Shown here: one piece after another, positions 1,695 through 45,617 of the stretch | How the letters are laid out: every line of letters starts with the position of its first letter | Numbering within the stretch: position 1 is the first letter of the stretch | Virus record (IMG/VR): IMGVR_UViG_3300005253_000455 | Location: 1-64,000 of that record | Length of the DNA: 64,000 nt | Source: a virus | Reading direction: 5' to 3' (one strand) | Translations under genes and position numbers: made by a program | Notes under the pieces: generated by a model | Told to the model about the DNA's origin: nothing | Seen by the model: only the letters and a program-made list of their open reading frames with translations | The model's database searches: none

Positions 1695-3056
1695 ATGTCT
1701 GAGCAACCTGAATATAGACCTCCCAATTTTACAATTCAAGAAGCTTCTCAATATAAAGCTGATATAGATTCTTCCATCGCTCTTCTCGGGCGAATAGCAG
1801 CTGCTTTTGCTCCACATGAGAAGCCCGCGATTGCAAAGATCAGCGAAGTCACAACTGTTGCTGATGTAGCAGGAAATCTTGATGGAACTTATTTTACTTT
1901 TTCAAGCCCAACAACTGATTTCTATATTTGGTTCAATGCCACAGATCTTAGTGGTTCTTCAGATCCAGGTCTTAGTGGGGCAACAGGAATTCAAATAGAT
2001 TATACAAGTGATGATTCTGCTGCCACAATTGCAGCTGCTATGAATGCAGCGATTGATGCTTTAGCTGAACTTAATAGTTCAGTTGCTTCAGATATAGTTA
2101 CAATAAGTAATAGAGATCAAGGAAGTGCGACGGATATTGTTGATATAGACACTGGATTTAGTTTTGCTATAATCACACAAGGTGGTGATGGGCCAGATGA
2201 TTTAAGCCTTTATATAGATGAAGGATTTATCCTGAATAATCCTAATCTAATTGGAAACAATGGAATGGATACTATTGCTTCTCAGATTATATCTGAGGGA
2301 AGCGGAGGAATTGAGGCTCCTGGTGTGAACCCAAGAATAGATAGAGTTGTGATTAATCCTGATACTGGTGTTTATGAATTAGTATCAGGTACTGAAGCGA
2401 TTTCACCAACACCTCCTGATCTTCCACCAGAAAAGATTCCAAACTGTCAATTTAGATTAGAGACAAGTACAACAATTCTAAGAAATTCTTTGATCACAGA
2501 TGAACGAGTTGCAATATCTGCTTTCCGAACTACTCCTGGTCGAGAGTTAATAGAATCAAAGAATGTTTCAAATTTTACTACAGAGATAGATTTTACATCT
2601 TTTGGTGAGCATGTATTCTTTGGCAGATATGCTTCTTATGAATTTGTTTTAGTTGGAGTAAGAATACTTGGAACATCAAAGACCTTTGGAATTAGAATTA
2701 GTAGTGATGGAGGTATAACTTTTAAAGCTGGAGCATTAGATTATGCAAATATGAAATATTCTGAAATTGGAGCTTCAAATGATTCAGTAGATGATTTGGC
2801 TACGTCTTATCAAATATTAGGTGAGGTAGTTTCAGCAAGTAATCTTGGGATTAATTCCACGATAAAACTATTTAATTTTGGTGTTGATGTACTTGTTATG
2901 CATTGTATGGTCAGCGCTCAAGATTCTGGGGGTAATGAAATCTCATATCTATCAACTGGACAGTATACAGGTGGTGGTCTTCCAAATGCTGTGCGATTTT
3001 TTACATCAGGCACTTATATTTCTGGGCATATCAGTCTCTATGGAATAGTATCTTAA
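1695..3056 (+). CDS. Putative virion appendage / fibre protein
   Basis: 453 residues starting at ATG 1695 behind AAAGAGAAAGGAATAAAA. Residues about 45-165 form a Ser/Ala/Asp-rich module (tract YIWFNATDLSG, then a run ending DIDTGFSFAI) of a kind I associate with phage and phage-like structural proteins. A Pro-rich linker near residue 240 (PTPPDLPPEKIP) separates it from a C-terminal beta-rich domain. No enzyme motif. With the preceding fibre gene and the following lysin it fits a tail appendage; binding target unknown. Confidence 0.55.
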   Translation: MSEQPEYRPPNFTIQEASQYKADIDSSIALLGRIAAAFAPHEKPAIAKISEVTTVADVAGNLDGTYFTFSSPTTDFYIWFNATDLSGSSDPGLSGATGIQIDYTSDDSAATIAAAMNAAIDALAELNSSVASDIVTISNRDQGSATDIVDIDTGFSFAIITQGGDGPDDLSLYIDEGFILNNPNLIGNNGMDTIASQIISEGSGGIEAPGVNPRIDRVVINPDTGVYELVSGTEAISPTPPDLPPEKIPNCQFRLETSTTILRNSLITDERVAISAFRTTPGRELIESKNVSNFTTEIDFTSFGEHVFFGRYASYEFVLVGVRILGTSKTFGIRISSDGGITFKAGALDYANMKYSEIGASNDSVDDLATSYQILGEVVSASNLGINSTIKLFNFGVDVLVMHCMVSAQDSGGNEISYLSTGQYTGGGLPNAVRFFTSGTYISGHISLYGIVS

Positions 3057-3080
3057 TTTTTTTTAAGGAGATTAAAAGAA

Positions 3081-3587
3081 ATGGCTCTAGGAAAAAAATC
3101 CCGAGATTCTCTCAAAGGAGTCCATCCAGATTTGAAAAGACTCGCTTATGAAATGTCTCGAAGAATTGATGCTGAGAAAAAGCGAAGAAAAGGAATTTAT
3201 AAATTTGATTTCTCAGCCCGTGATGGAGTTCGTGGGGAGGCTGCACAAGATAAAGCTTTTGCTTCTGGAAATAGTAAAGTCAAATTCCCTGATTCAGAAC
3301 ACAATAAGAAGCCAAGCCAGGCAATTCATTTCTTGCCTTATCCAATGAGATGGCCCAATAAACCAGAACTTTACGTTGGAATGGGTACAGTGGATTTCAA
3401 GAAAACAAACAAGGAAATAAAAATCTACGCAAAACAACTTGGGCGATTCTATCAACTAGCTGGCTTTGTTCAAGCCGTCGCAATTGATCTAAATATCCAA
3501 GTTCGGTGGGGTGGGGATTGGAACAGAGATGGTAATATAATGGATCAGAACTTTGATGATCTTGCACATTGGGAAGTAGTTGTTTAG
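3081..3587 (+). CDS. Endolysin, M15-type (VanY/L-alanyl-D-glutamate) peptidase
   Basis: 168 residues, ATG 3081 after TAAGGAGATTAAAAGAA. The pattern S-x-H74-N-x2-P-S-x-A-I followed by PYP and the C-terminal D160-L-A-H163-W-E matches phage M15 peptidases, zinc enzymes that cut peptidoglycan stem peptides. In the family the first block normally ends in a zinc-binding Asp (A-V-D). Here that residue reads His83 (codon CAT), which may still bind metal or may lower activity. The N-terminus is highly basic. Followed at once by small membrane proteins, so this is the lysis region. Confidence 0.8.
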   Translation: MALGKKSRDSLKGVHPDLKRLAYEMSRRIDAEKKRRKGIYKFDFSARDGVRGEAAQDKAFASGNSKVKFPDSEHNKKPSQAIHFLPYPMRWPNKPELYVGMGTVDFKKTNKEIKIYAKQLGRFYQLAGFVQAVAIDLNIQVRWGGDWNRDGNIMDQNFDDLAHWEVVV

Positions 3588-3616
3588 CTTTTTTCTTGGG
3601 AGTTGAGGAGATTAAA

Positions 3617-3823
3617 ATGGCTAGTGATGATAACAACAATAACAATCGAAGATCTCCATCTTCATTCCAGATATTAATTAATGGAATGAACATAGCAACA
3701 TTTATAACAGTCATTTCCATTCTCGCCGTTGTTATGCGATGGACAGGAATTGTTGATACAAAGATCACCAATCTTGAGGAATGGAAAAATTCACACATCG
3801 CACAAAGGCATGGAGATCGTTGA
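3617..3823 (+). CDS. Small membrane protein, 68 aa (lysis region)
   Basis: ATG 3617 follows GTTGAGGAGATTAAA, a clear ribosome site. Residues 1-17 are polar (an Asn run, then Arg), about 20-42 form one transmembrane helix, and the tail is charged (KITNLEEWKNSHIAQRH). One helix with a polar N-terminus and amphipathic C-terminus would suit a holin partner, pinholin-like protein or spanin component. I cannot tell which. The stop at 3823 is two bases before the next start, so the two genes are probably coupled. Confidence 0.6.
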   Translation: MASDDNNNNNRRSPSSFQILINGMNIATFITVISILAVVMRWTGIVDTKITNLEEWKNSHIAQRHGDR

Positions 3824-3825
3824 AG

Positions 3826-4050
3826 ATGAGCAAAGAACTTGTTGCAATTTTAACTAATATTCCTGGATATGTTTTCCAAGGATTTGCCCTCTGGCTTCTT
3901 GTCAAATACTCATTGGATAGAAAACATCAAATTGAGAAACCGAAGAATTTGGCTGGATGGATCTATTATTTGAGAATAGAGATAATTTTCGCTTGTGTGT
4001 TGATTCCCCAATGGGCAGATTGGCTGCCTAAGGCTTTTGATAAATCTTAG
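3826..4050 (+). CDS. Two-helix membrane protein, candidate holin, 74 aa
   Basis: ATG 3826 starts two bases after the preceding stop. Two hydrophobic segments (about residues 8-28 and 46-66) are separated by a basic loop (DRKHQIEKPKN). Size, two helices and the place right after the endolysin fit a class II-type holin, which would form the membrane lesion that lets the lysin act. Position and topology are the only support; the neighbouring genes at 3617 and 4076 are competing candidates. Confidence 0.5.
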   Translation: MSKELVAILTNIPGYVFQGFALWLLVKYSLDRKHQIEKPKNLAGWIYYLRIEIIFACVLIPQWADWLPKAFDKS

Positions 4051-4075
4051 TTTCTTTTGAAAGGAAAGGAAAGAT

Positions 4076-4381
4076 ATGCTCGGAACAATACTTGAACTTA
4101 TACCTTTTGTTGGGCCAGTCATTTCTGTCATTGGATTGGTAAGTGATGCTGTTGCGGAGCCTAGTAGTGGTGGGGCAATGGTAGGATTAGTTACAACAGT
4201 TTTAACCGCTCATTTCATTTCTCCATATGCAGAGAAATTTGTTGAATGGACTGAGACTCCTTTTGATAACAAAGCGTGGAATGTATTTACGACAGTTTTG
4301 GGATGGGTGACAGAGGTTCTTGTGAAGCTTGGTAAGATTGATGCCAAGGAAATCAAAAGGGCCGTGATAAAAGAAGTGTAG
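4076..4381 (+). CDS. Hydrophobic membrane protein, alternative holin candidate, 101 aa
   Basis: ATG 4076 after GAAAGGAAAGGAAAGAT. Residues 5-25 and about 34-52 are strongly hydrophobic and Gly-rich; the C-terminus is basic (KIDAKEIKRAVIKEV). Last gene of this rightward operon, ending 27 bases before a hairpin terminator. The lysis cluster thus has three consecutive small membrane proteins, and one is probably the holin. Confidence 0.5.
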   Translation: MLGTILELIPFVGPVISVIGLVSDAVAEPSSGGAMVGLVTTVLTAHFISPYAEKFVEWTETPFDNKAWNVFTTVLGWVTEVLVKLGKIDAKEIKRAVIKEV

Positions 4382-7259: not shown

Positions 7260-7459
7260 ATCTTAGCCCTTTCTTTTTTCAATTTTAATCTCAAACATCC
7301 ACAACTTTTAGTTAATCCTGTAACAAGTCGGGCCTCTCTAACTCTTGTGAACTGCCCACAGTCACATCTACAACTATAGTAACAATGACTATCTTCTGCA
7401 ACATCAAGCAATTCTAGGACTAGAAGCCTCCCGAATTTCTGACCTTCTAGATTCCTCAT
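7256..7459 (-). CDS. Small zinc-binding DNA-binding-like protein, 67 aa
   Basis: ATG 7459 is chosen over an upstream start because GCAAAGGAGAAAC precedes it. The sequence LEGQKFGRLLVLE ... CRCDCGQ ... TKSCGCL is the N-terminal zinc domain commonly found before AP2 or HNH domains in phage homing proteins. The domain stands alone here, so it may be a remnant of a homing gene or a small DNA-binding protein. It overlaps the 3' end of the polymerase gene by 56 bases in another frame. Confidence 0.65.
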   Translation of the reverse strand: MRNLEGQKFGRLLVLELLDVAEDSHCYYSCRCDCGQFTRVREARLVTGLTKSCGCLRLKLKKERAKI

Positions 7460-10031
7460 GTTTCTCCTTTGCTTGCTCAATTATCCCTGGAAGTTCTAAT
7501 TCCAGATCACCAATTTGTTTGAAGTCTAAATCCTTTAATTCTATCATGTTCTTCCAATCAAATCCTATCTTGCAATCAGTTCTAATTGAAAATTGGCGGC
7601 CTTCCCATTCAAGAACATCGTGCATATGCTCTATTCCCGTGAAAATAACCTTTGATAAATCACGAAGATTAGAGAAAGGAGCCTGGCCTAGGTTTGAATC
7701 ATGGCCCTCAAGCAAAAGCTCAAACGGCCGCATCCAAGGTGTTCGATCATTATAAAGTCGAGTCATACCATTCTTATTATTCCTTGAAACTGTTGATTGA
7801 GGATTCCAGTCATAAGCTTCCTTGAATAGATCATCGCCCCATTCTCCAAGAAATGTTCTTTTGTCTTGATAGCAATTTTCAATGGTTCTGTTTTTATCCA
7901 ATTGGGCTTGTGTTCTTTTATACCAATGCTTTAGACCTGGATAGCCTTTGTGATAACCGTCATAGATTCTCTTAGAGAGATCAAGGTCAGTCTCATATTC
8001 CAGAGCAAAACGGGCCGCCTGCATATCGTAGTTGAAGCCGTGATTACTATGCTTTCCACATTGTCGAATTGAGTAACCACGCGGCCAAAAAGCATCAGGG
8101 TAGACTATGGATAGGGCTTCTCTGGTCCATTCAGGTTTGTTGGCTAAGCACCATTTATCCAGTTCAACGCGGGCCTTCTCAATATCTATTGGGTCCCGAG
8201 AATGCCCAACATATTTATCTTCCAGCTTAATATACTCAATGGGCAATCCTGTGATCATAGAGCCACTCACTGCATGAGCATCAAGTCTTCTTTCTACGAC
8301 CCTAATCATGTTTGCATCACCCGAAACAAAAGCTACAACAACCCATTCAGCCTGAACTTTATCCCACTCAATAAAGATTCTATCATCATCAGGAATTAAA
8401 TATGAGCGGAAAGATAAAGGAAGGTTCTGATGATTCATCCCTGTTCCATCAATCGTCTTACCACTAGCAAATCTATTATTCTTAGTTCCTCTTGGATTAT
8501 AAGCACATCGGAAGCGGCCATCTTTATCGAAGCCAATATCAAGATACGTAGAATTGAGTTTTCTTAGGCCCCGAATCCCTTGAATCAATTTTGCTTCTTG
8601 CAAAGGCTTTCTTGAGGTTGTACCTTTAGCAAGTCTTTCAAGAGACTTATCATCCAAGGTTGCAGAAGAGGTTTTCTTAACCTTATTGTATTTTGTGAAC
8701 GGAGTTATTTTCAGTTCTTCGTAAAAATATTCCTTGCATTGCTTTGGAGAATTTACATTGAATTCTCTTCCAGTTATAGTATTAAGTTCAATTTGTTGTT
8801 TATCTATATCCCTCTCAACTCTTTCTTTCTCGATTTTGATTGCACCTGGATCAACATGGATTCCTTTCCAGACCATGAAATTTATTGGGTCAAAATACTT
8901 CATTGTCTCCCGATAATAATGAAAGAATCCATCCTCCGTAATCTTATGCTTGATTGCATCCCAGACTTCAAAAGCATGAGTGCAATCTTTGCAATTATAG
9001 GTCCACCATTGACCCCAGTCTTTGATCTGATTCAGTTTCCATTGCTTCCCTTCATCTTTGTAATAAGGTTCTCCTTTGCACTGAAAAGATACAAGGAAGT
9101 CAAGACCTTTAGGGAAGTCGGGATAGAGAATATGATGGGCAATCATTATATCATCAATATATCCTTTTGTCTGGATTCGGTTGTGTGCAAGGATATAAGA
9201 GGTATCAAAAATTAAGTTCATTCCAAGTTTTGGAACTTGGGGGTCTTCCATGAGATTTGCTATTGCCCGCCATACATGGCCTTCTTGGCTTGGAGAATAG
9301 TTGTCTACAGGTATGCACATAGCCTCAGTTGGATTCGGGGCAAAGCCTATACAGGAGACTTCATTCTTAGTCACTTCTATATCCCAAGATACAGTTCCTC
9401 TTTCCTTCCTAAGATTATCTATATAATCAGTCGCATCCTGCCAAGAAGGTCTGATTATATAATTTCTTTCTAGAAGCCTGATCTCTGGGAAAGTTGATTG
9501 ATAGACAGATCGCCTCATATCCTCAACGATATAATAGCGAACCATGAAATTTCCATGGAGTGCTGAGGAAGGATGAATGGCGGGAATGACTTTTCTTCCG
9601 GGTAGAAGTGTGGACTCAAGAATTGAGCCTCTGTATTTTGTAATCTGTTGATGGCCAGTCAGGCAATAACAAGCAAGGCGGCCCATAGGCATAAGAACAT
9701 TTGCTGTTACACTTTGCAGTTCTTCTTTGAGTTTATCTTTCCAGTATTCTCCCAATTTGGTGAGACCGTTCCGGCCAATTAATTCTTCAATATTTTTCTC
9801 AATAGGTTTCTTTGAAACATTAGTTAGATATATCTCTGTTCTTGTTAAACCCGCCTGGTGGGCACATTGCTCTAAGACAAAGCCTGCTGGCCCAACCCAA
9901 GGCTTTCCTTTAGCTATTTCATTTCTAGCAGGAGCCTCTCCAATCATCGCAATTGCGGAGTTGGGGTCTCCATCCGGCGGGACAGTTCCCTCATTCATAG
10001 CAGGGAGATTTGGATAAGATACAAAGCCCAT
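7404..10031 (-). CDS. Fusion of family-4-like uracil-DNA glycosylase and family A DNA polymerase
   Basis: 875 residues. Residues about 25-170 form a UDG-like domain (GEAPARNEIAKGKPWVGPAG at 31-50, IHPSSALHG at 152-160). The Fe-S cysteines of family 4 are not evident. Residues 210-365 are a 3'-5' exonuclease with D217-I-E219, D276 and Y345/D349 in place. Residues about 370-800 are the polymerase: motif A with D557 and E562, motif B R656-x3-K660-x7-Y668, motif C H777-D778-S. This is the main replicative polymerase. It starts one base into the upstream stop (TAATG). Confidence 0.88.
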   Translation of the reverse strand: MGFVSYPNLPAMNEGTVPPDGDPNSAIAMIGEAPARNEIAKGKPWVGPAGFVLEQCAHQAGLTRTEIYLTNVSKKPIEKNIEELIGRNGLTKLGEYWKDKLKEELQSVTANVLMPMGRLACYCLTGHQQITKYRGSILESTLLPGRKVIPAIHPSSALHGNFMVRYYIVEDMRRSVYQSTFPEIRLLERNYIIRPSWQDATDYIDNLRKERGTVSWDIEVTKNEVSCIGFAPNPTEAMCIPVDNYSPSQEGHVWRAIANLMEDPQVPKLGMNLIFDTSYILAHNRIQTKGYIDDIMIAHHILYPDFPKGLDFLVSFQCKGEPYYKDEGKQWKLNQIKDWGQWWTYNCKDCTHAFEVWDAIKHKITEDGFFHYYRETMKYFDPINFMVWKGIHVDPGAIKIEKERVERDIDKQQIELNTITGREFNVNSPKQCKEYFYEELKITPFTKYNKVKKTSSATLDDKSLERLAKGTTSRKPLQEAKLIQGIRGLRKLNSTYLDIGFDKDGRFRCAYNPRGTKNNRFASGKTIDGTGMNHQNLPLSFRSYLIPDDDRIFIEWDKVQAEWVVVAFVSGDANMIRVVERRLDAHAVSGSMITGLPIEYIKLEDKYVGHSRDPIDIEKARVELDKWCLANKPEWTREALSIVYPDAFWPRGYSIRQCGKHSNHGFNYDMQAARFALEYETDLDLSKRIYDGYHKGYPGLKHWYKRTQAQLDKNRTIENCYQDKRTFLGEWGDDLFKEAYDWNPQSTVSRNNKNGMTRLYNDRTPWMRPFELLLEGHDSNLGQAPFSNLRDLSKVIFTGIEHMHDVLEWEGRQFSIRTDCKIGFDWKNMIELKDLDFKQIGDLELELPGIIEQAKEKHEESRRSEIREASSPRIA

Positions 10032-10404: not shown

Positions 10405-11748
10405 TTACTCCAGTTCAAATTTCTTCAAATAGCTTTTCCGAATCTCATAAAGATATTTCTCTTTATAATCTTCGTTGTTATCAAAGCCTAAAGTTTTATA
10501 CCCCATTTCTTTTGCAGCAATGATAGTAGCACCACTCCCGAGAAATGGAACCAGAACCTTGTTCATATAAGGAACAGTAGTTACTCCAAAAGTTTCGATT
10601 ATTTCTTTTATGAGTTCAAGAGGTCTTTGTGTTGGGTGGTATTTATCTCCAGCGAACACTGGATCAATAGCGAATTGATTACTTCTACCCTGTTTGAGAA
10701 CAACGGATTTCATTTCCTTTTTAGCACCATAGAAGAAAGTCTCATATGTTCTAGCAAGTCTTAGGAGTGGTTGATTTGTCTGGCCATTCTTTTTAGTCCA
10801 GAGAGCGGGTATTTCATCTATCACCCAACCAGCTTCAGTTAAGGCAGAATAAACTTCTTTATACCATTGATACCCGAACCAGAAAACTATCTTAGCATCT
10901 TTAGCAGATACTCTAAATAATTCTATGGCAAGATCATCTAGAAATTGCACATAATCACCTGCTGGAATCTCATTGTAGTTCTTTACTTGATCTTTAATTG
11001 CTGTTTTGGGTGGTCTTTTCTTTCCCTTAAAATCAATACCATAAGGCGGGTCAACCTCAATCAAGAAAATCTCCCTATCTTCATCAGGTAAAGAAGCAAG
11101 TCCTTCAAAAACATCTATTATCTTGTAATCTTCGTCAGCCCCTTTTAGGAGTTTTTCAAGAGTTTTATCTTTTGCAGTCTCTGGATCTTCTGTTCTTCTT
11201 CTCAGCTCATCAAGAGCAAGCTTCTCATAAATTGAATCAAGTGATTTCTTAGCTTGATCTGCTGTTTTTGCTTTTGCCAATTCTGGCATCTTCTCAAGTG
11301 CTTCTGCGAGTTGTAAATGTTGGGAGATTCCCCCAACTGAGCGTTCAAGAAGATCAGCGGTTTTTCTTCCCGACCAGTCTTGATTCTTCTCTGAATAAAG
11401 TCGGTGAATTTCAGCGGTGAGTTTCGCTTGTTCATCCCAAGCCAAATTCTCTCGCATCAAATTCTCAATCAATTCTACTTCTCTCGCATCCAGTTCATCT
11501 TTCGATTCCCGAATTATCACTGGAATCTCATCCCAATTGTCGGGATCTTCTTCTCTAAGAAGCTCAATAGCTTTTATCCTTCTTCCACCAGCAAGTAGAT
11601 TCAAGTTCTGATCTAAGACTGGAGGTTGAATGAGACCTTTGTCTTTGATAGAAAGAGCGAGATCATCTATTCCATTGTATTCAGTTCTGAATCGTTCTCC
11701 AATGACTATCTGTGAGAATCGAACATTACGTTGGACTATCTTATCCAT
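10405..11748 (-). CDS. ParB-domain / DNA methyltransferase fusion
   Basis: 447 residues. Residues 1-110 are a ParB/Srx-type domain (GLIQPPVL, AGGRRIKA, ENLMREN), followed by an HTH-like helical part. From about residue 225 there is an amino-methyltransferase with DPPYG (motif IV), then HPTQRPLELI, then FLGSGAT (motif I). This IV-before-I order is the beta class, methylating adenine N6 or cytosine N4. Such fusions occur in phages, where they probably protect DNA from host nucleases. The target site is unknown and no matching restriction gene is seen. Confidence 0.85.
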   Translation of the reverse strand: MDKIVQRNVRFSQIVIGERFRTEYNGIDDLALSIKDKGLIQPPVLDQNLNLLAGGRRIKAIELLREEDPDNWDEIPVIIRESKDELDAREVELIENLMRENLAWDEQAKLTAEIHRLYSEKNQDWSGRKTADLLERSVGGISQHLQLAEALEKMPELAKAKTADQAKKSLDSIYEKLALDELRRRTEDPETAKDKTLEKLLKGADEDYKIIDVFEGLASLPDEDREIFLIEVDPPYGIDFKGKKRPPKTAIKDQVKNYNEIPAGDYVQFLDDLAIELFRVSAKDAKIVFWFGYQWYKEVYSALTEAGWVIDEIPALWTKKNGQTNQPLLRLARTYETFFYGAKKEMKSVVLKQGRSNQFAIDPVFAGDKYHPTQRPLELIKEIIETFGVTTVPYMNKVLVPFLGSGATIIAAKEMGYKTLGFDNNEDYKEKYLYEIRKSYLKKFELE

Positions 11749-41585: not shown

Positions 41586-44099
41586 ATGGAAACTCAGGCA
41601 ACACAAAATGTTGATTTCACGGAACTGATTAACAACCTTCCTATCCGTAAAATCAAGAAAATGGTTGGGGATGAAGCTTTCTTCGATTATCTCCAAACAC
41701 TTCCAGATCATACAGTAGAGGATTTACTTTATGACTGGAGAAGCTGGGCAAGGCCGGAGCAAATCTCCCCGCCTGGTCTTTGGAGTATCTGGCTTTATCT
41801 TGCAGGAAGAGGAAGTGGGAAAGCTCTTGCTCTTGATACTCCTATTCCAACAATGGAAGGTTGGAAATCAATGGGTTCTTTAATTCCTGGAGATGTTATT
41901 TTTGATGAATCTGGAAAACAATGCAAAGTTCTTGAAGCTTATCCAGTTCAATATAATAAATCTTGTTATAATGTGCATTTTTCAGATGGAGCAAAAATAA
42001 CTGCTGATGCTGAGCATCTTTGGTTTACAGAGGATAAGGCTTCTCGAAAAGGTGAAGCTAGAAGAATTGGAGGGGGAACTGTTCCACAAAGAATGCCAAC
42101 CCGATTTCCTCAGATAAGAACAACTGAGGAAATTCTCTCTACCATCTCAATACCAAGAAGTGATGGAGCCTTTGAATTAAATCACTCAATTCCTGTTGCC
42201 AAGGCTTTAAGTTGTAATTTACAATATCTTCTGATCGACCCTTATTTTCTCGGTATTTGGTTAGGAGATGGTGATTCAAAAAGTTCTGCTATAACGACAG
42301 AAGATCCAGAAATTTTAGAAGAAATTCTAAATGTTGGATATCCTATTGAGAAACTAAATACTCCATCAAATAATAGATATACAATTGGGACTGTTGAATC
42401 AGAAAGAGATGGGGTTGGGAGATTTACTCGAAATACCTCTATTCATTCTTTTCTTAAAGATTTAAATGTTCTAAACAATAAACACATTCCCCAAATTTAT
42501 TTGAGGGCATCTAAATCTCAAAGACTTGCTCTTCTTCAAGGTTTAATGGATTCCGATGGTTATATAGATGGAGGTGGAACTTGTGAATTTACCTCAACAA
42601 AAGAAAGGCTTGCTCTAGAAACTTGGGAACTTTGTTTATCTCTTGGTTTAAAAGCTACCATTGCAGTTGGAAGAGCAATGCTTTATGGTAAAGATTGTGG
42701 CCCAAAATACAGAGTTTGTTTCACAACTTACAAAACAACTCCAGTTTTTAGACTTTCTCGAAAGTTAAACAGATTAAAAGAACCAGGGAAACAAGCTAAG
42801 AGACAATCTCGAAGATATATAAAAGCTGTGATAAAAACTGAATCTGTCCCGGTTCGTTGTATAACTGTTGATTCTCCATCGAATCTTTTCCTTGCTGGTT
42901 GGCAGATGATTCCAACACATAATACTAGAGCAGGAGCAGAATGGATCAAAGAAAGAGTCGAGAAAGGGGATGCCCGATTCATAGCCCTAGTCTCTCAGTC
43001 AGCGGCGGACGCACGTGACGTCATGGTTGAGGGAGAGTCGGGCATCCTTTCTGTATATCCAGATGGAAAGAAGCCAAAGTATGAACCTTCAAAAAGAAGA
43101 ATAGTTTGGCCAAACGGAGCGCAGGCAACGATTTACACAGCTGAAGACCCTGATCAACTTCGAGGCCCGAATCATGATACAGCATGGGCTGATGAGATTG
43201 CAGCCTTCCGACACCTCGATGATCTTTGGTCAAACTTAATGTTAGGGCTCAGGCTCGGTGATTCTAAATGTTTCATTTCTACTACGCCTCGGGCGATCAA
43301 ATTCATCAAGGATTTAATTATAAGATCTATCAATCTTGATGCTAATAAAGAACTAAACACTCTGGAGAAATTCCCAGAAGATAGAATCCGTGACACGTTT
43401 GTAACAAAAGGAACTACCTATGATAATAAGGAGAATTTGAGCAAGACGTTCATGAATCAAATCATTACCCAATATGAGGGAACAAGACTTGGTCAACAAG
43501 AACTTCTTGCTCAAATCCTTCAAGATGTAGAAGGGGCTCTTTGGAATCGAGAACTTCTATCTGCAAATCGAGTTAAAGCAGATGAAATAAGAACTGAAGA
43601 TTTAACTAAGATAATAGTCGCAATTGACCCAACTGTTGCAAAAGCTGAGAATGCAACAGAGACTGGAATTATAGTAATGGGGAAACACAAGAATGGTCAT
43701 GGTTATACTATGGCAGATAGAAGTCTTGTTGCTAGCCCCGATGGTTGGGCCAAAGCCGCTGTTGCAGCTTATGAGGCTTATGAAGCTGATAAGATAGTAG
43801 CAGAAAAGAATAATGGCGGTGAGATGGTTTCTTTAACTATTGGAACTGTCAATGACAAAATACCTGTAAAACTTGTTTGGGCAAGTCGGGGAAAAATAAC
43901 AAGAGCTGAGCCGGTTGCTGCTCTCGATGAACAACATAAACTCCATTTAGTAGGTGAGTTCTCGAAACTTGAAGATGAACTTTGTACCTATGATGGAGAG
44001 GGTGATTCACCTAATAGGCTTGATGCTTATGTATGGGCCGCCACAGAGTTGTTCCTTGGGAAGAGGCGCAGCAGAGGCTTAGTCTTTGGTAGAGGTTAA
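41586..44099 (+). CDS. terL: Terminase large subunit interrupted by an intein
   Basis: 837 residues as encoded, about 470 after splicing. The N-extein ends GRGSGK at residue 79 and the C-extein resumes TRAGAEW, so the intein splits the Walker A motif and the precursor cannot bind ATP until it splices. TAWADEIA is Walker B; IVAIDPTV and the later D-A-Y-V-W-A are nuclease residues. The enzyme packages DNA into the prohead. Stop is 3 bases before the portal gene. Confidence 0.93.
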   Translation: METQATQNVDFTELINNLPIRKIKKMVGDEAFFDYLQTLPDHTVEDLLYDWRSWARPEQISPPGLWSIWLYLAGRGSGKALALDTPIPTMEGWKSMGSLIPGDVIFDESGKQCKVLEAYPVQYNKSCYNVHFSDGAKITADAEHLWFTEDKASRKGEARRIGGGTVPQRMPTRFPQIRTTEEILSTISIPRSDGAFELNHSIPVAKALSCNLQYLLIDPYFLGIWLGDGDSKSSAITTEDPEILEEILNVGYPIEKLNTPSNNRYTIGTVESERDGVGRFTRNTSIHSFLKDLNVLNNKHIPQIYLRASKSQRLALLQGLMDSDGYIDGGGTCEFTSTKERLALETWELCLSLGLKATIAVGRAMLYGKDCGPKYRVCFTTYKTTPVFRLSRKLNRLKEPGKQAKRQSRRYIKAVIKTESVPVRCITVDSPSNLFLAGWQMIPTHNTRAGAEWIKERVEKGDARFIALVSQSAADARDVMVEGESGILSVYPDGKKPKYEPSKRRIVWPNGAQATIYTAEDPDQLRGPNHDTAWADEIAAFRHLDDLWSNLMLGLRLGDSKCFISTTPRAIKFIKDLIIRSINLDANKELNTLEKFPEDRIRDTFVTKGTTYDNKENLSKTFMNQIITQYEGTRLGQQELLAQILQDVEGALWNRELLSANRVKADEIRTEDLTKIIVAIDPTVAKAENATETGIIVMGKHKNGHGYTMADRSLVASPDGWAKAAVAAYEAYEADKIVAEKNNGGEMVSLTIGTVNDKIPVKLVWASRGKITRAEPVAALDEQHKLHLVGEFSKLEDELCTYDGEGDSPNRLDAYVWAATELFLGKRRSRGLVFGRG
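41823..42923 (+). mobile_element. Class 3 intein with LAGLIDADG endonuclease in terL
   Basis: 367 residues, from Ala (GCT 41823) to Asn (AAT 42921). Position 1 is Ala rather than Cys or Ser. Block B has DAEHLWFT with Trp, block F VRCITVD with Cys, and block G IPTHN with Thr before His-Asn: this is the W-C-T triplet that marks class 3 inteins, which splice through the internal Cys. Between the splicing halves are two LAGLIDADG motifs, LGIWLGDGD and LLQGLMDSDG, so the element looks able to home. Confidence 0.9.
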
Positions 44100-44102
44100 A
44101 AG

Positions 44103-45617
44103 ATGGCAGAAGAAAGAACAGAAGAAAGAACAGAAGAAGTAAAAGCTGATGGGAATGGCTCAGAGGCTACTTTGAGTTTGAACAAAGGGCAGCTGAGAGC
44201 CTTGACTACGAGCCTAATAACTCGGGGCCGCCTTGCAGCTGAACTTGGCCAAACTTATGCGGGCAATCGAGACGTTTATGAAGTTCTTGGGTATGACAAG
44301 ACTTTAACTTTTGAGATGCTTGAGGCCCGATATAAGCGTGAGCATATTGCAAAGAGAATAGTCAATGCACCAGCAGCAGCCACTTGGAATAATCCTCCTG
44401 AAATCGTGCCAAAAGAAGATGGGGATAATAAAAGGAAGGGCAAAGAATTCTTGGAAATTTGGGAAAAGTTAATCAATCGCATCCACTTGTATTCAAAGAT
44501 TGAACGTGCAGATAAACTGGCGGGAATAGGTGAATTTGGCATTCTCTTAATTGGCCTTCGTGGTGGGGGTTCCCTTGAACATCCAGTATCCCGAAAGTTT
44601 ACAGCTGATGATCTGATGTATCTTTCTCCTTTCTCTCAAAAGGCTGCAACGGTTGAAACCTTCAGCCAAGATCCAACAAATGAAAGATTTGGAGAGCCTG
44701 ACCATTACAGAATACAAACTGGAAAGAATCTTGAGAATTTCAGAAGCTTTCAAGTAAAAACTCATTGGTCTCGAGTTATCCACCTAGCTGATGGCTTGCT
44801 TGAAAATGAAGTTTATGGAACTCCCCGCCTTGAGGCAGTTTTCAACCTTTTCAATGATCTTGCAAAAGTAGTGGGTGGCTCTGCTGAATTTTACTGGAGA
44901 ATTGCAGATCGTGGGCTTCATGCAGATATTACAGATCCAGAAGCAGAATTTGGGGAAGAGGATGAGAAAGCTCTTTCTACTGAAATCTCCAATTACATCC
45001 ATGGTCTTGATAGAGTCCTACAAACTCGTGGTGTTACTGTAAAGAGTCTTGGAGCAGAAACAGCAGACCCTCGTGGGCCTTTCCAGAATATAATCTCTTT
45101 GATTGCAGGTGCTTCTGGAATCCCACAAAGACTTCTTATGGGAAGTGAGAAAGGTCAATTGGCTTCTTCTCAAGACAAAGCAAGTTGGAACTCAGTGATA
45201 GAAGAAAGACAGCGCCTCTATGCTGAGCCTTATATTCTTCGTCCCTTTGTCGATAGATTAATTAAATGGGACATGCTTCCTGATATTGAGTATGAGGTCA
45301 GATGGCCTGTTGTCTTTCCACAGACTGAGGAAGAACGTTCTATCATTGCTGTTAGGATTTCAAGTGCCGCGAATAATATGGCCAAAGCTAAATCTCAAGG
45401 CGGGAAAGTAATCGCAGACAAGGAATTCAGAGATAAATATCTAGGCCTTAAAGATGAAGCTGAGATTCCTGAATTAGAAGAAGCTGAAAGAAAACAAAAA
45501 GAATTGGATGCTGAAATGAAGAAACAAGGAATAGTTCCTGGGATGCCGATTCCTGGAGAAGAAGGCAAAGAAGATGAGGGAGATAAAGATGAACAGGGTA
45601 ACACAGGAGATGCGTGA
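44103..45617 (+). CDS. Portal protein (DUF1073-like)
   Basis: 504 residues. ARYKREHIAKRIVNAPAAAT, ERADKLAGIGEFGILLIGL and FQNIISLIAGASGIPQRLLMG are blocks I associate with the DUF1073 family of phage portals. The C-terminal 50 residues are acidic and Lys/Glu-rich. It forms the dodecameric channel at the capsid vertex for DNA entry and tail attachment. Position after terL fits. Confidence 0.85.
   Translation: MAEERTEERTEEVKADGNGSEATLSLNKGQLRALTTSLITRGRLAAELGQTYAGNRDVYEVLGYDKTLTFEMLEARYKREHIAKRIVNAPAAATWNNPPEIVPKEDGDNKRKGKEFLEIWEKLINRIHLYSKIERADKLAGIGEFGILLIGLRGGGSLEHPVSRKFTADDLMYLSPFSQKAATVETFSQDPTNERFGEPDHYRIQTGKNLENFRSFQVKTHWSRVIHLADGLLENEVYGTPRLEAVFNLFNDLAKVVGGSAEFYWRIADRGLHADITDPEAEFGEEDEKALSTEISNYIHGLDRVLQTRGVTVKSLGAETADPRGPFQNIISLIAGASGIPQRLLMGSEKGQLASSQDKASWNSVIEERQRLYAEPYILRPFVDRLIKWDMLPDIEYEVRWPVVFPQTEEERSIIAVRISSAANNMAKAKSQGGKVIADKEFRDKYLGLKDEAEIPELEEAERKQKELDAEMKKQGIVPGMPIPGEEGKEDEGDKDEQGNTGDA

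Follow-up and report, generated by a model that had tools for sequence, protein, structure and literature searches.

What kind of intein splits the ATP-binding loop of a phage terminase large subunit, and is it likely to be a working element? The locus that raises this question lies in the virus record IMGVR_UViG_3300005253_000455, and the stretch of DNA analysed here (the window) covers the first 64,000 of its 69,883 bases. An earlier reading made from the letters alone (the sequence-only reading) had proposed a class 3 intein within the terminase Walker A motif, armed with an intact homing endonuclease, and had described class 3 inteins as uncommon. We sought to place this element relative to characterized inteins and to weigh that proposal against other explanations.

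A terminase gene interrupted within Walker A

The host gene occupies 41586..44099 on the plus strand and encodes an 837-aa precursor, intein included, identified as a terminase large subunit from the ORF call, Pfam and PHROG. Pfam detects Terminase_6N (1.6e-23) from residue 447 of the precursor onward and Terminase_6C (6.9e-7) further toward the C-terminus, the product matches terminase large subunit families in PHROG, and a portal gene lies directly downstream at 44103. The presence of a Terminase_6N ATPase, whose Walker A becomes complete when the residues on either side of the intein are joined, together with an RNase H-like nuclease domain, places the protein among Terminase_6-family large subunits. 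Elsewhere in the window, the minus strand encodes an 875-aa protein (7404-10031) with a uracil-DNA-glycosylase superfamily region (residues 18-161), a 3'-5' exonuclease (199-364) and a family A DNA polymerase (from 402), as well as a 447-aa protein (10405-11748) in which a ParB N-terminal domain is fused to an N6/N4 DNA methylase.

Sequence, alignment to the structure of the Mycobacterium smegmatis DnaBi1 intein (Msm DnaBi1; 6BS8) and an AlphaFold model delimit the intein at 41823..42923 on the plus strand. These 1101 nt supply 367 in-frame, stop-free codons (codons 80-446 of the terminase), running from Ala1 to Asn367, with ALALDTPIPT at the start and MIPTHN at the end. The preceding N-extein (41586..41822, plus strand) contributes 79 aa and terminates in AGRGSGK of Walker A, where intein-less relatives run on without a gap as GKTR. 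Pfam and the relatives' alignment define the 391-aa C-extein (42924..44096, plus strand), which opens with TRAGAEW; its first residue, the +1 Thr (codon at 42924), is the Walker A Thr. The insertion point, AGRGSGK/T, is exactly where the sequence-only reading had put it.

The empty site is well represented among related viruses. Scanning viral contigs in IMG/VR with the C-extein returned 80 loci, and nearly all of the closer loci that reach the P-loop read AGRG(F/W)GK-TR with no insert. The joined exteins are 45-52% identical to four relatives (L038, L039, L043 and L123), with a gap-free junction in each. This continuity defines the empty site and reveals that Walker A is split between its invariant Lys and the Thr; judged from these alignments, precise excision of the intein would restore the motif. 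Third-position GC is 16% in the intein versus 38% and 32% in the exteins (Fisher p 3e-8), which is weak evidence for recent acquisition, as 13 of 16 related inteins also fall below their own exteins.

Assignment to class 3

Class 3 inteins are defined by Trp at block B position 12, Cys at block F position 4 and Thr at block G position 5 (PMC3196547). The N-terminal splicing region of the terminase intein (41823..42038, plus strand; blocks A and B), aligned to residues 1-73 of 6BS8, includes Cys48 and a block B of D62-A-E-H65-L-W67. The C-terminal splicing region (42822..42923, plus strand; blocks F and G) aligns to residues 105-139 (SVPVRCVEVD...MVPTHN), with VPVRC346ITVD as block F and T365-H366-N367 as block G. 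Position 1, immediately after the Walker A Lys, is Ala rather than Cys, Ser or Thr. Trp67, Cys346 and Thr365 fall at B12, F4 and G5 and align with Trp67, Cys118 and Thr137 of Msm DnaBi1, and Asp62, His65 and Cys48 carry identical residue numbers in the two inteins. The block B His65, the terminal His366-Asn367 and a nucleophilic Thr+1 are likewise present. The features listed in the sequence-only reading (the Ala start, the Trp of DAEHLWFT, the Cys of VRCITVD, the Thr of IPTHN and two LAGLIDADG motifs) are thus each found where they were said to be.

The Trp-Cys-Thr triplet alone is no proof of class 3, because a block F Cys also occurs in some class 1 inteins (PMC3196547) and a class 1 intein converted to carry the triplet splices poorly (PMC7664689). 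The grouping with class 3 rather than class 1 draws on phmmer comparison with solved structures, in which Msm DnaBi1 (6BS8, E 8.6e-24) and Mch DnaB1 (6RIX) were the top matches. The class 3 DnaB inteins ranged from E 8.6e-24 to 1.7e-22, versus 3.5e-4 for wild-type class 1 gp41-1 and 1.4e-5 for its engineered, triplet-bearing C1A/F65W/D107C variant. This ranking bears on an alternative in which the element is class 2-like, or a divergent class 1 intein minus its first nucleophile, in which Thr+1 would itself attack the N-junction, leaving Cys346 a purely structural role. Ala1 is compatible with such a scheme, since class 2 inteins also have no nucleophile at residue 1 (PMC3196547), but the triplet at B12, F4 and G5, the closest structures being class 3 (E about 1e-23) and the fact that KlbA is the sole known example of class 2 (PMC3196547) make it exceedingly improbable. 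A search of NCBIfam gave weak matches to intein-containing proteins via the endonuclease part and no intein-specific family.

The class 3 assignment also gains from the biochemistry of its nearest matches. Class 3 splicing of Msm DnaBi1 has been proven by experiment, with Cys118 as first nucleophile and C118A abolishing splicing (PMC6195587), and Mch DnaB1 has a catalytic Cys-His-Thr arrangement (PMC7664689), all residues of which are found in the terminase intein. All 11 homologues share His65 and Trp67, while Cys346 and Thr365 are missing from just one of them, L009, a fragment that ends ahead of blocks F and G. The pattern as a whole is not a chance one, given that both ends align to Msm DnaBi1 (E 8.6e-24), that Pfam detects LAGLIDADG_3 (4.5e-8) between them, and that intein-less relatives are gap-free across the junction.

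Predicted fold and homing endonuclease

An AlphaFold model of the intein, built on an 11-sequence alignment, had a mean pLDDT of 85. Superposing its splicing domain on 6BS8 gave 1.3 A across 125 residues (46% identity, Z 20.8); class 1 gp41-1 ranked behind (26%, Z 17.8). The whole model matched PI-SceI end to end (Z about 27, 330-340 residues), one alignment covering 334 residues at Z 27. A Foldseek search agreed, and in a viral structure library the best matches were other phage helicase and terminase inteins. Together with Ala1 and the triplet aligned to 6BS8, the fold match upholds the class 3 call at the level of sequence and model; very probably, this phage terminase ATPase carries a full-length class 3 intein in its P-loop.

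Pfam and the model's match to PI-SceI place the LAGLIDADG homing endonuclease region at approximately 42219..42731 (plus strand), with LAGLIDADG_3 accompanied by Hom_end (2.7e-5). Both motifs keep their acidic residue, Asp149 in FLGIWLGDG (residues 142-150) and Asp245 in LLQGLMDSDG (237-246). The prediction of an apparently intact homing endonuclease is therefore sustained, again from sequence and model. A decaying intein that has already lost splicing or cutting, leaving the gene dead or reliant on another terminase copy, has precedents: inactive class 3 inteins are known (Arsp-FB24 Arth_1007; PMC3196547), and the second LAGLIDADG Asp is substituted in one relative, L007. Here, however, no splicing or endonuclease residue has been lost, the frame stays open over all 837 codons, both exteins retain intact terminase domains, and an intein search of the virus's own genome found only the copy at 41823-42923. 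We consider decay very improbable.

Relatives and frequency

The claim that class 3 inteins are uncommon did not hold. A tblastn search of 50,697 phage records found relatives of the intein in 752, with >=80% query coverage in 522 and many in terminases; 39 plasmid records also had them. In cluster E mycobacteriophages, a Trp-Cys-Thr intein already occupies the homologous Lys/Thr site. Full inteins at or near terminase and helicase P-loops (L002-L008, L010, L117, L119, L120 and L124-L127) all carry the block F Cys and the THN end. Matches inspected in Salmonella phage helicases share only the endonuclease part (about residues 137-310) and are not treated as class 3 here. By these sequence comparisons, phage genomes commonly carry class 3-type inteins, and the terminase Lys/Thr site is among their locations. 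None of the relatives searched was near-identical to the intein in the window.

A splicing-domain tree based on about 109 residues groups the window intein with those of L125 and L037, on long branches and with local support of 0.84-0.86. Lacking a class 1 outgroup, this small tree adds no weight to the grouping with class 3 over class 1, and given the moderate support and long branches we do not claim a shared ancestor for the window intein and the L037 mini-intein.

Several relatives vary at residue 1 or in the endonuclease. In L125 (Rhodobacter phage RcDurkin), L127 (Stenotrophomonas phage SOVA965) and L120 (Gordonia phage Zipp), the residue after the P-loop Lys is Arg, Pro or Leu while the block F Cys and THN are kept, which fits a catalytically idle residue 1. 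The terminase inteins of L006 and L007 (each at 2998-4143 of its contig) show features of both class 1 and class 3, combining a Cys start with the Trp-Cys-Thr triplet (KATQLGF/CLKLDT...PTHN/TEL). The second LAGLIDADG Asp is Asn in L007 and retained in its near-twin L006, which suggests on sequence grounds that the L007 endonuclease was recently disabled.

Proposed splicing and homing

By homology to characterized class 3 inteins, we infer that the terminase intein splices, cleaves and homes. Cys346, at block F position 4, would attack the Lys-Ala1 junction with assistance from His65 and Thr365 to give a block F branched intermediate, from which the N-extein would pass to Thr+1. Cyclization of Asn367, assisted by His366, and an acyl shift would then yield an uninterrupted GRGSGKT Walker A. 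Prior to splicing, the ATPase would be expected to lack normal ATP binding, and packaging should wait for splicing; the earlier statement that packaging depends on splicing is a prediction soundly drawn from the interrupted P-loop. In co-infecting phages, the LAGLIDADG domain would most likely cleave intein-less terminase genes at the GK/T site, allowing the intein to be copied in.

In addition to class 3 splicing, the intein might act as a regulatory switch, with oxidation linking Cys48 to Cys346 and holding back terminase maturation unless the host cytoplasm is reducing. Cys48 matches the residue number in Msm DnaBi1, where a Cys48-Cys118 disulfide inhibits splicing (PMC6195587), and Cys is also found at position 48 in L037, L002, L003, L004, L006 and L007. 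Conservation may instead be structural, as splicing of DnaBi1 itself needs Cys48 and every tested change there abolishes it (PMC6195587), and the position is Met, Ile, Val and Val in L005, L008, L009 and L010, respectively. Such a redox gate seems unlikely.

Comparison with known systems

Msm DnaBi1 shares with the window intein an ATPase P-loop position, Ala1, the Trp-Cys-Thr triplet, DxxH, the terminal HN and Cys48, but resides in the replicative helicase DnaB, has a +1 Ser and is a 139-aa mini-intein without endonuclease. Mycobacteriophage terminase inteins are known to splice, and cleavage of the intein-less partner gene has been shown for TerL1-b of BAKA and TerL1-c of Bethlehem (PMC5050341). 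Endonuclease activity of a class 3 terminase intein was shown in 2016. Bethlehem gp10 TerL1-c is a class 3 terminase intein that splices and cuts (PMC5050341), although its position within the ATPase domain is elsewhere, outside Walker A. The name TerL1-a denotes the Lys/Thr Walker A insertion site (PMC5050341), and from the matching site we infer that the intein of Bruin gp8 (L119, a cluster E mycobacteriophage) is TerL1-a. This 331-aa intein, starting ALDVETPILT, shares the terminase Walker A Lys/Thr site and has the triplet at the block positions; it is 36.8% identical to the window intein, and its host belongs to a different terminase family, Terminase_1 (PMC5050341) as opposed to Terminase_6.

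The closest terminase in the IMG/VR scan was L037 (IMGVR_UViG_3300005253_001301), with 65% identity over the C-extein and 51% for the portal. It has the same terminase family, Lys/Thr site, Ala1, Trp-Cys-Thr triplet and Cys48, but its intein is a 148-aa mini-intein without a LAGLIDADG domain. More distantly, Methanosarcina virus MetMV (L117) carries an intein at the Lys/Thr site (AGRRSGK/AQ...THN/T) of a related packaging ATPase, annotated as a gene transfer agent terminase. The triplet residues are present there, but the intein is only 27% identical and its host is an archaeal virus.

Phage terminases and helicases were established hosts of class 3 inteins before this, and that general picture is unchanged. 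To it, the window adds a well-formed class 3 intein, its endonuclease apparently intact, at the Walker A Lys/Thr site of a Terminase_6-family packaging ATPase. The full-length intein in the window, the mini-intein at the same site in L037 and the empty sites in L038 and L039 form a natural series that is suited to a test of the homing cycle.
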